Source of the DNA: Candidatus Methylacidiphilales bacterium
GTDB lineage: Bacteria; Verrucomicrobiota; Verrucomicrobiia; Methylacidiphilales; JANWVL01
Length of the DNA stretch: 61,408 nt
NCBI GenBank assembly: GCA_025056655.1
Contig: JANWVL010000112.1
Location: forward strand, 1-61,408
Direction: 5' to 3'
A model generated the notes under the pieces. That model was not told where the DNA came from. It was given only the letters and a program-made list of their open reading frames with translations, and searched no databases. Shown here in pieces: positions 3,239 through 29,496 of the stretch. A program made the position numbers and the translations under genes. Within the stretch, counting starts at the first letter, position 1, and each line of letters opens with the position of its first letter.

Positions 3239-5227
3239 TTAGCGTTTAGAATTGTCCTCATCTTGCGTCTCTTTTGCGGGGTTGTTTAGTAGGATGGCGC
3301 CATCCGGCAGTTTATCGCTAGCGCATCGAAAGCCGATCCAATTAGACATATAGTCCGCAGTGTGTCGACGGATGCGACGGGTTATATCAAGCTCCTTGTT
3401 GGTATAATTACCTCCTCGTATGACCGGGACATGCTCGGAGCTTATTCGTGAACTATTATCCCATGTATCCGTCCATTCGCTTAGGTTCCCAGCCATCGCA
3501 TACACACCATACGGACTTCGATCTTCAGGAAATGAGTCGACAGGGGCTGGGCCGGCATAACCATCTACATGACCTCCTGGTTGTTCTTGGGTAAAGCTGT
3601 AGTCAATTCCTGAGTTGGCTTTTTTTTCATCTGGGTCGTTTCCCCATGGAAATTTCTGCCCATCTGTTCCACGGGCAGCCTTTTCCCATTCGATCTCTGT
3701 TGGGAGACGTTTCCCTGCCCATTTTGCGTAGGCATACGCTGAATACCAGTCTACGTTGAAGACTGGGGAGTCCATAGTTAGCAATTGTCCATTAAAAGGT
3801 TTGCGTGCACGAATGCTTGATAGAATTTTATCCCAATCTTGGGGCACGTAGCTGCGATTTTTATCTACTAGGGATGAGTGGGCATAGTCCGAGGCATTTT
3901 TTTTGGTGGCAATATCTTCTAGAAATTTTTGATATTGACCTATGGTAACTTCGTATGCATCGATGTAGTATTTGTCTGTTGTTGCAGTATTCCCGTCTTG
4001 ATAAATGAAGTCTCCGGCTGGAATCTCGACCATGTAATTGAAATTTCTGCCGACAGGGTTGTATGTTATTTTTTGGATGATTATCCAGCTTACGAAGGCA
4101 CATGAAGCTAAGAGTAGAATAGCAAAGAGAGTGAGCTGGATATTTCGCTTTTTTTCAGCTTGCGCGGCTAGCTTTTGGGCACGTTCGTGTTCAGGTGTGA
4201 CAGCGATTTCCTTTTTAGGAGCTAGATCAATACAAATCTGTTGAGCTTGGGCTTGAATGGCCTGAATGTCGGGGTTTTCGACAGATGCTGAGACCAGGAG
4301 CTCCTGCACGCGTAGAACCGAAGGGTGGCTTGTGTTAAGAAGTTGACGGCATGTGTTAACGATACTTTGTAAACGGAGGGAAGCTCCCGGGGAGTCGGGT
4401 AAGTCTGGGTCGACGCAATTTTGTATTTTGACTACACCATCGTCAGAGAGATAGATTTGCTCATCGCTTATCGCGGGATGTTTTATTTCGAGTGATTTCC
4501 AGTGAAGAAGAACAGTCGTGAGCGTGTGTATGATCGTGGCAATTAATCGCGGTTCGAGTTTTTTTCCTGATCGTAAAATGTCACGCAGACTAGGGGCTTG
4601 CCAGTATTCGCGGACAATAGCTGGGCGTCCTGCAATCTCTGTGGCTTGATAAACGGCAAGAACATTAGGATGTGTGGCTTGTGCCATACTGGCAGCCGAT
4701 CGGATCAGGCGTGAGTGGGCGGCCTCGTCAGTTTTAGCAGGGAGTATGGAGAGAAGAACTTTTCGGTTGATGTTGCGTTGGGTTGCCTCGTAACATTCGC
4801 CCAACGAGTCATCGGGGAGTTTCTTTTCAATAAAGTAAGGGTTCCAAAATATACCTTCGAGAGTTGGGAAGAGGCTAGCGATAAAAATATCAAATAGGTT
4901 TTCCTCGCACGGCAGACCTAGAATAGGAAAGCCTTCTAGATAAGGGAGATAATCAGTAAGGTCATAAATACTCGTAACTAAAATCGGCACGCTTGGGTTT
5001 TGAGCACGAAAGTTGTAAAGAAACTCTAGGGTGTTGTTTGTCTGGAGATATACTTCTGTGAGGAGCAGGTCTATTTTTTTTTCTGTAGAGTTAGAGTTAA
5101 ATTCAGATAATCCCTCTTCAGTTCCGATAACTTCAACCGTCGCATCAGGCAGAAGAGCCTGTATGCGCTCACTCATGAAGGTTTGGTAGATTGGTTCGGG
5201 GTGAATGATCAGAACGAATCGAGACAT
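3239..5227 (-). CDS. Membrane protein: degenerate receiver + pseudokinase + TM + FGE/SUMF1-type domain
   Basis: This 662-residue protein has four parts. Residues 1-120 have receiver-like alternation, but the phospho-acceptor position reads LLLTEVYL (Glu58 for Asp), the acidic pair is HPEP and the usual Lys-Pro is LP. Residues 140-335 resemble a Ser/Thr kinase: a Lys in NRKVLLSIL fits the ATP lysine, but HRD is replaced by HPA and DFG by QNC, so it is probably a pseudokinase. One TM helix spans about 364-385. Residues 398-650 form an FGE-sulfatase domain ([45 protein letters not shown]). The expected topology is an intracellular N-half and a periplasmic FGE domain. FGE-type domains in such fusions usually do not act as true formylglycine enzymes. 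Target and signal are unknown. Confidence 0.8.
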
Positions 5228-5308: not shown

Positions 5309-5605
5309 CTAGCGCTCTGTAGCATTATCCTCACTCCTTGTTCCTCCATACCTTCTATTAATCTGGGATTGAGGTTCTGAAAAGCTTTTTTTGCTGGACT
5401 CGTGCTTCGGGGTTGCCTCTACGGAATAAGACGAAGAGATTTTCGACATTTGAATGAAGTAATTTTTTACCCACGGTGAAATTAAGAAAAATAAGATTTG
5501 GAGAATTATCGCAATGGTAAATGCGATTACCGCGATGCGGTAGGTTTTTGGGCGGATGCGTTGAAATCCCGAGGGAGGGAGGGAAGGAAAGGCAGAGGGA
5601 TTCAT
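5309..5605 (-). CDS. Small single-pass membrane protein, unknown function
   Basis: This 98-residue protein has one strong TM helix (about 24-46, IAVIAFTIAIILQILFFLIS), a short N-terminal tail with Pro/Ser, and a ~50-residue Ser/Lys/Arg/Glu-rich tail. I do not recognise a family. Its ATG overlaps the stop of the preceding gene (ATGA, 4 nt), as that gene does with rlmN, which argues for a real, translationally coupled gene. It is the last gene of the subtilase-rlmN string unless the pseudokinase gene 81 nt downstream is also included. Confidence 0.6.
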   Translation of the reverse strand: MNPSAFPSLPPSGFQRIRPKTYRIAVIAFTIAIILQILFFLISPWVKNYFIQMSKISSSYSVEATPKHESSKKSFSEPQSQINRRYGGTRSEDNATER

Positions 5606-12072: not shown

Positions 12073-12105
12073 TAAGCCAGAGTTTTTTGTCTGCGCTCTG
12101 GCTTA
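12073..12105. terminator. Perfect 10-bp inverted repeat between convergent genes
   Basis: TAAGCCAGAG and CTCTGGCTTA flank a 13-nt loop. The right arm includes the stop codon of the minus-strand gene. It lies between the plus-strand ruvB group and the minus-strand BsuPI-like gene, so it could end transcription from both sides, but neither arm is followed by a good U-tract. Confidence 0.45.
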
Positions 12106-12615
12106 TGGGACAGAGAAGGCCTTTTGGGTGTTGAGGACTTCATGCTCGACTAGCTCGCCTTCGGCAACGTATTCGCCTGGAGGCAGAGATATGGTCTCTT
12201 CGTAGGTGGCGGAGTCGTTTGGGTTTATGGCAAGCGTGCCAAGGACTTGAGCGTAGAGCTTTCCAGCGGAGGAGTTGAAGATCGTTTTTCCCGAGCTATT
12301 TCGGACGCGGATTTCATATCTGCGGGCTGTAGAAAACGGTAGGGTGATTACTCGGCGGCTTTTGTTGGTGACGCTGAATGTTAATTTTACTCGGTGTTGA
12401 CCGAGTTTTTCGATGTTGAGGGTGGGCACGATTTGTTTGTAAGGGATTTCGTTTGCGCGATGGATGCGATTGACGTCTCCGCTCATTCTGAGCTTTTTGG
12501 GGTTCGGATTTCTAAATTTTTCGGGGACTGTTTTTTTGCTGGGAGAAACTTCAATAGCGCTGATGGTGGCGGCATTTATTAGTAGGCTGATGAGGGGGAT
12601 AAAGAACAGTTTCAT
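12103..12615 (-). CDS. Exported protein with BsuPI-like domain
   Basis: This 170-residue protein has a signal peptide (LFFIPLISLLINAATISA), a basic linker, then an Ig-like beta domain at about 70-165 with VKLTFSVTNKSRRVITLPF, RYEIRVRNSSGKTIF and SLPPGEYVAEGEL. This is the pattern of the BsuPI (intracellular proteinase inhibitor) domain, which in exported proteins is usually an uncharacterised beta-sandwich rather than a proven inhibitor. Partner unknown. Confidence 0.7.
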   Translation of the reverse strand: MKLFFIPLISLLINAATISAIEVSPSKKTVPEKFRNPNPKKLRMSGDVNRIHRANEIPYKQIVPTLNIEKLGQHRVKLTFSVTNKSRRVITLPFSTARRYEIRVRNSSGKTIFNSSAGKLYAQVLGTLAINPNDSATYEETISLPPGEYVAEGELVEHEVLNTQKAFSVP

Positions 12616-28537: not shown

Positions 28538-29356
28538 TCAACGCACGCAGACACCGCTGTAACCGGTTCCAAACTTTGAAAGCCGACCTCGTGCCGTGAG
28601 CCTTAGCTCCTCATTGCGACAATATTGCATCAAAAAGGTTGGTGTGGATACATGGATCGTGCGCTTGGGAAAGTCGGTCTCGTGATAGAAAAAATAAGGC
28701 AACCCCGGCTCATGACGCGGCATCGTAATCAGGGCCGACAAAAGCCCCATATTCTCTACATGAATCAATTCCCCAGCCATGAAATAAAGCACCGGTCCGA
28801 TCTTATTTTCCGGCTGGAGCAACATCACACCACTGAGTTTTTCATCATGGATAAATTGTATAATCCGAAACAGCGGCAAATCCGCCAACACACCCGAAAA
28901 ACGCAACCGCCGGTGTGTGGCATAGTGCGAACTCGGATTCAAGATGCGAATTGTCGTACGAAAATTAGAGAACGTCGGCCGCTCCCGACAAAGCTGAAGT
29001 TCATGCGACACAATGCAAAACATCTCCCCAAAATTCAGCACCTGATGATGCACCCGTTGGCCATCAATGTAAGTGCCGTGCGTGCTCGCTAAATCCACTA
29101 GGATCACCTCATTACCACTGTGCTTGAGCACTGCATGCTCGCGGCTCACGCGGTGATCATCGAAAACGATATCGTTGACTTCCAATCGCCCTATCCGAGC
29201 CGATGTAAACGGTTTCAACTCATATACCCGCACGCCATCAATCAAAAGCCACACCGAGTCCAGCGTTTTCTTTGGTATTTTTGATGACTCCTCAGATGCG
29301 AAATCGACGTCACCGGGTTGCTCAACTTCAGTGGAAGATAACTTCTGGGCGGACAT
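28538..29356 (-). CDS. FHA domain protein with DUF4388 (PATAN-like) domain
   Basis: This is a signalling protein of about 272 residues; I chose the ATG at 29356 over 29401. Residues ~35-125 form an FHA domain, a phosphothreonine reader: RIGRLEVNDIVFDDHRVSRE and DLASTHGTYIDGQRV keep the Arg, Ser and Asn/Thr binding positions. Residues ~150-255 match DUF4388 (FSGVLADLPLFRIIQFIHDE, KLSGVMLLQP, VLYFMAGELIHVE), common in bacterial regulators. The N-terminal tail is acidic and Ser-rich. A Ser/Thr kinase partner is not obvious in the window, unless it is the pseudokinase gene at 3.2-5.2 kb. Confidence 0.87.
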   Translation of the reverse strand: MSAQKLSSTEVEQPGDVDFASEESSKIPKKTLDSVWLLIDGVRVYELKPFTSARIGRLEVNDIVFDDHRVSREHAVLKHSGNEVILVDLASTHGTYIDGQRVHHQVLNFGEMFCIVSHELQLCRERPTFSNFRTTIRILNPSSHYATHRRLRFSGVLADLPLFRIIQFIHDEKLSGVMLLQPENKIGPVLYFMAGELIHVENMGLLSALITMPRHEPGLPYFFYHETDFPKRTIHVSTPTFLMQYCRNEELRLTARGRLSKFGTGYSGVCVR

Positions 29357-29496
29357 AAAAATCACTCGAATTATTACACTACACTGCAGAAAATCAAGCA
29401 AAAATCACTCATACAAGCAATTTTGTTAAATTTCGTTGACAATACAACCGATAGTTTTATCTCTGCACTGCCCTTAATCGTGCTAATCGTTTTGCA

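Follow-up and report, generated by a model that had tools for sequence, protein, structure and literature searches.

A role is known for only a few bacterial pseudokinases. In the type VII secretion system the transmembrane pseudokinase EssB acts as a scaffold, and MviN, another pseudokinase, restrains peptidoglycan synthesis by recruiting FhaA (PMC12599244). The Hanks-type kinases StkP/PknB combine a kinase, a transmembrane helix and an external domain, and the fold of the formylglycine-generating enzyme (FGE) occurs in SUMF1, in EgtB and in PorK/GldK, ring-complex lipoproteins that put this fold to a non-FGE use. Each of these modules is known singly, and PDB names such as 7spq and 5nxl point to fusions of a kinase with an FGE domain. 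Here we describe gene B, which lies at positions 3239-5227 (minus strand) of the window, the whole 61,408-nucleotide stretch of a Candidatus Methylacidiphilales contig that was analysed, and encodes a 662-aa membrane protein consisting of a receiver, a pseudokinase, a transmembrane helix and an FGE-fold domain.

MviN/FhaA of Mycobacterium tuberculosis (ActPs3 family) is like gene B in being a membrane protein whose kinase is dead in all three motifs and has a reduced activation segment; its cell-wall connection is plausible for gene B, and the FHA recruitment shown for MviN is a candidate function (PMC12599244), whereas it has no receiver and no FGE domain and belongs to another phylum. EssB/YukC shares the single transmembrane helix and the cytoplasmic pseudokinase scaffold (PMC12599244), but it has neither receiver nor FGE domain, and its secretion system was not found beside gene B. 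Compared with StkP/PknB, the gene B product is catalytically dead, has a receiver added and carries an FGE domain instead of PASTA; compared with SUMF1, it lacks the catalytic cysteine pair, and its FGE domain is placed outside the membrane behind a pseudokinase. We found no description of the receiver-pseudokinase-transmembrane-FGE architecture, its class-wide operon or the receiver-DUF4388 slot exchange described below in the open-access literature. Published families of bacterial pseudokinases include ActPs1-3, GLW, CP1, DYD and DLHK; in a review of bacterial pseudokinases, Verrucomicrobia, FGE and receiver are not mentioned (PMC12599244).

The three-part membrane ORF is confirmed as real. 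It has an ATG start, and it is more than a chance frame because full-length relatives occur across families of its order and across the class, with low dN/dS in six of seven close pairs. Pfam places an FGE-sulfatase domain (PF03781, E 1.4e-44) at residues 399-636 (3320-4033, minus strand, as for all features of gene B) and a PK_Tyr_Ser-Thr match (E 5.5e-9) at residues 135-269, within a pseudokinase domain that spans residues 128-335 (4223-4846); the Pkinase match (E 1.5e-7) falls narrowly under its cut-off, and the Response_reg match at residues 18-89 (E 0.0025) is weak and below the cut-off. The original prediction had called for structure prediction of the cytoplasmic half, and both expected folds were obtained from an AlphaFold2 model of residues 1-346 computed with 11 relatives (pLDDT 84). 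Residues 4-119 form the (beta-alpha)5 fold of PF00072 in the order E-H-E-H-E-H-E-H-E-H, within the pseudo-receiver domain at residues 1-119 (4871-5227), and the kinase part comprises a five-stranded N-lobe, helix C, helices D and E and then just three helices, so that the C-lobe is reduced in the model. Foldseek matched this part to Aurora/PknB kinases in the PDB (E about 1e-11, probability 1.00), and the best kinase matches by sequence are Hanks kinases of the StkP/PknB type.

A single transmembrane helix at residues 365-384 (4076-4135) is predicted from hydropathy and falls within a helix at residues 345-389 of the full-length model. The Lys/Arg cluster N-terminal of this helix suggests that the C-terminal FGE domain lies outside the membrane. 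The full-length model is weaker (pLDDT 74) and is poor at residues 525-568, which may result from the shallow alignment of 12 rows (the window sequence and related loci) used for the structure predictions; the FGE fold is assigned from Pfam and from sequence matches to SUMF1 structures in the PDB (E about 1e-25).

Comparison of aligned columns indicates that all three modules look non-enzymatic. The window receiver does not carry the PF00072 catalytic set of acidic pair, phospho-Asp, Thr/Ser and Lys: it has H-P in place of the acidic pair D-D, Glu at the phospho-Asp, Ser at the Thr and Leu at the Lys. The receiver was thus rightly predicted to be dead in this protein; all five positions are intact in seven relatives (L083, L084, L085, L088, L090, L093 and L097), and at position 57, 25 of 53 rows have Asp and 24 have Glu. 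In the kinase, whose columns were set by alignment with active kinases encoded in the window genome and elsewhere in the class, Ser replaces the VAIK Lys, HPA replaces HRD and NCV replaces DFG, most of the Gly-rich loop is missing, and the protein does not qualify as an active Hanks-type kinase, as had been predicted. The loss extends through the family: the HRD Asp is present in none of 56 evaluable rows, the DFG Asp is changed to Asn in 51 of 60 family rows, two of which (L042 and L043) have no kinase, and the VAIK Lys is kept in seven. With the kinase dead in every evaluable row and the receiver intact in seven relatives, the pseudokinase state is ancestral, whereas the receiver decay is lineage-specific; intact homologs leave the claim of a dead kinase standing and confine that of a dead receiver to particular lineages. 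A kinase fold with degraded motifs that is kept by selection, the selection being measured in relatives, identifies the domain as a pseudokinase.

The FGE domain had been described as well kept. Its fold signature, GNxSEW and GFRC, is indeed retained, but the catalytic cysteines corresponding to SUMF1 C336/C341 are absent from all 58 aligned family rows, the window included, and the domain has the fold of a formylglycine-generating enzyme without its catalytic pair. An active receiver, kinase or FGE was accordingly rejected as a reading of the window protein, in which the catalytic residues are lost.

The triple architecture, noted beforehand as unusual, is no isolated case: it defines an undescribed family distributed throughout the GTDB class Verrucomicrobiae. 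The window protein belongs to it by domain order, dead kinase and common descent, and named copies come from Candidatus Methylacidiphilales and related Verrucomicrobia. Matches were obtained in 44 of 60 relatives within the order, many of them full length and from several families, and confirmed members occur outside the order within the class. The receiver-kinase half is matched at E <1e-20 in 141 of 286 class genomes; weaker matches include ordinary kinases. The same domain order, which the original prediction proposed to look for in other genomes, therefore recurs across the class; no full-length member was found outside it at E 1e-40 in one phylum sample, which gave only a match to the FGE part (G445). 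Most of the genomes are drafts, and that of the window is 96% complete with 3.1% contamination, so that absences are soft.

A tree of 52 members mostly follows taxonomy, and in it the window protein groups with family f9, which belongs to its own order (support 100/97). Inheritance is mostly vertical, and gene B is an ancient pseudokinase transmitted across a whole class. The relatives are under purifying selection: dN/dS is 0.03-0.17 in six of seven close pairs and 0.46 in the seventh, which is at low divergence; where the receiver and kinase parts allowed an estimate, their values are low. Conservation is highest in the FGE domain. Variants include family f3 (L042 and L043), in which the kinase part is absent, family f11 (L094-L096, L123 and L124), in which the receiver is absent, and proteins with long Pro/Ala/Val-rich linkers (L036, L090 and L097). 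The intact, Glu-substituted and missing receivers constitute a natural series in which two-component gating is lost and the scaffold is kept.

Elsewhere in the class, gene B is flanked by two genes that are its best-evidenced partners. The product of gene A, directly upstream, has a transmembrane segment, a proline-rich linker, TPR and a conserved C-terminal part; that of gene C, directly downstream, has an apparent signal peptide and no Pfam match, as a secreted protein. Outside the window order, 61 of 64 genomes listed have A next to B on the same strand, and 46 of 66 have B next to C, counts made among the matches listed in related genomes, which are not independent events. In nine of the genomes listed without B, A and C are immediate neighbours, 57-95 nt apart. 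An Amidase_3 N-acetylmuramoyl-L-alanine amidase follows C in L088, L097, L124, L155, L157, L174 and L176. In six genomes of family f17 (L142, 1576-5285, and L169-L173) the order is A, receiver-DUF4388 protein, C and Amidase_3, with the receiver-DUF4388 protein of about 225-250 aa occupying the slot of gene B. From this slot exchange, the fusions described below and the adjacencies, we conclude that receiver, DUF4388, pseudokinase-FGE, A, C and amidase are one evolutionary neighbourhood. To judge by their transmembrane segments and signal peptide, A, B and C would all meet in the periplasm. The place of gene B in a defined operon, beside uncharacterised partners and frequently a cell-wall amidase, makes its function genetically testable.

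Gene A has work of its own, since it is present in all genomes searched of family f8 of the order (G007, G013, G031 and others), which have neither B nor C. At L132, L133, L138 and L140 (families f2, f3 and f4 of the order), gene A follows genes for an ABC-2 membrane protein, an ABC_transp_aux (GldG-like) protein and a DUF4340 protein, the Pfam basis for these neighbours being L132; this neighbourhood gives A a second setting, apart from B. Gene C occurs in 211 of 286 class genomes, in nearly all of these as a single copy, and at L154 (5501-7537) the next gene downstream of it, on the same strand, is MreB-like.

The original prediction had suggested that the cytoplasmic side of the protein binds other regulators, perhaps an FHA protein. 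The FHA-DUF4388 protein at 28538-29401 (minus strand, Pfam) is the sole DUF4388 match in the window genome and is a candidate partner only. Three relatives (L088, L093 and L098) carry a fused DUF4388 that separates receiver from pseudokinase, and these fusions together with the f17 slot protein give the idea of a DUF4388 connection support at the level of the family. An obligatory DUF4388 partner was rejected, as the f4 genomes have gene B and no DUF4388. The PATAN-receiver regulators PixE, PixG and PilG of Synechocystis show the same pairing of a receiver with DUF4388, which we take to be PATAN, as the relatives of gene B and the f17 slot protein. Their domain order is reversed relative to the relatives, the window protein itself lacks DUF4388, and a pilus link for gene B is a candidate. 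DUF4388 is expanded in families f2, f5 and f9 (up to 14 matches per genome), compared with zero in f4 of the same order.

Within the window order the operon is mostly dispersed, with A and B together in one genus only, and in the window gene B has neither a full A directly upstream nor C directly downstream. Gene C is present in the window genome as a single copy on another contig (G000:C132:26605-27384; L147:6576-7571); a full-length gene A was not found in that genome, and no amidase was seen beside gene B in the window. Directly upstream of gene B, a 98-aa ORF at 5309-5605 (minus strand) is probably a truncated gene A of which the N-terminal RPKTY-transmembrane segment alone is left. This reading is drawn from its position and from an alignment to gene A of L026, in which its start, QRIRPKTYRIAVIAF followed by the transmembrane segment, aligns with KRLRPKTYSIALYLA. 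The alignment score was reached by none of 5000 shuffles of the whole ORF and by about 1 of 5000 when shuffled segment-wise (p about 2e-4 or lower); against the profile of A, the ORF is not significant alone (E about 0.06 among the window ORFs).

Pfam, the aligned columns, AlphaFold2 and Foldseek agree in describing a non-catalytic three-part membrane protein, for which the originally suggested scaffold is the simplest reading. We propose, giving the proposal an even chance, that gene B encodes a transmembrane scaffold without enzymatic activity, part of a Verrucomicrobiae envelope complex that plausibly acts on peptidoglycan; it is probably a structural relay between cell interior and envelope rather than an enzyme. 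The cytoplasmic receiver and pseudokinase would serve as binding and conformational modules, joined by the single transmembrane helix to a periplasmic FGE-fold docking domain, and the ancestral partners would be the membrane TPR protein A and the secreted C, joined in many lineages by a peptidoglycan amidase. In the ancestor, a receiver that was still intact, whether or not it came with DUF4388, may have switched the periplasmic assembly through its phosphorylation, amounting to inside-out control of the wall or of surface machinery. With the change of the phosphosite to Glu, the shrinking of A and the splitting of the operon, the window lineage might have been left with a constitutive or phosphate-independent scaffold. 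We infer complex formation, the direction of signalling and the effect on peptidoglycan alike. Counting against the scaffold-complex proposal are the mostly dispersed operon in the window order, the location of the window's C on another contig, the f4 lineage with gene B and without DUF4388, the occurrence of A without B or C in family f8, and the restriction of the adjacent amidase to part of the lineages, the window gene not being among those with it. A bolder version, which we regard as possible although doubtful, is a class-wide inside-out system in which the receiver, with or without DUF4388, drives the pseudokinase-FGE scaffold, which together with A and C would switch a periplasmic amidase, the phosphomimetic Glu locking the window lineage on; by analogy, it would be a counterpart of FtsEX-EnvC built from dead signalling enzymes.

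Signalling may also run in the opposite direction: the FGE domain would bind a ligand in the envelope, and its state would be relayed by pseudokinase and receiver to DUF4388/FHA regulators that act on type IV pili or on similar machinery of the surface. The pilus motor PilB of Synechocystis is a binding target of PATAN response regulators (PMC10519157). Gene B adjoins an Amuc_1098-like type IV pilus secretin gene in the window, and DUF4388 is either fused to its cytoplasmic half or fills its slot. Such an outside-in receptor is nevertheless unlikely, considering that no secretin lies beside gene B in the relatives inspected, that f4 has secretin and gene B yet no DUF4388, and that the PilB argument requires DUF4388 to be equated with PATAN. 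A further alternative keeps chemistry in the FGE domain, which would work as an oxidase or maturase through a different active site and be regulated by the cytoplasmic half; this would agree with the strong conservation of the domain and with the enzymatic versatility of the fold family (PDB matches EgtB, SenA, OvsA and CalU17). The loss of both SUMF1 cysteines in every aligned member, the failure to find an extra EgtB-type domain with Pfam and the use of the same fold as a structural part of the PorK/GldK ring make it quite improbable.

Two readings have still less to recommend them. Pseudokinases such as SelO and SidJ have AMPylation or glutamylation activity (PMC12599244), and the VAIK Lys kept in some relatives would be consistent with a non-canonical activity of this kind; with that Lys, most of the Gly-rich loop and the DFG Asp missing from the window protein, the C-lobe shortened in its model and the whole kinase domain absent from family f3, we consider it very improbable. 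It is hardly more credible that gene B is decaying in the window lineage and on its way out. The apparently truncated A and the split operon would fit decay, but the 662-aa frame is open and aligns with relatives end to end, dN/dS among the relatives is mostly 0.03-0.17, and gene B is present in many genomes from several families of the order.

Two consecutive genes for Amuc_1098-like type IV pilus secretins are located at 2-490 (cut by the contig end) and 507-2843 on the plus strand of the window. The Amuc_1098-like secretin is widespread in the order, and paired genes of this type recur there; a link between secretin and gene B was looked for, but the secretin does not lie beside gene B in the neighbourhoods of relatives that were inspected. 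At 12103-12615 (minus strand) the window also encodes a BsuPI domain protein (intracellular proteinase inhibitor family) with an apparent signal peptide.
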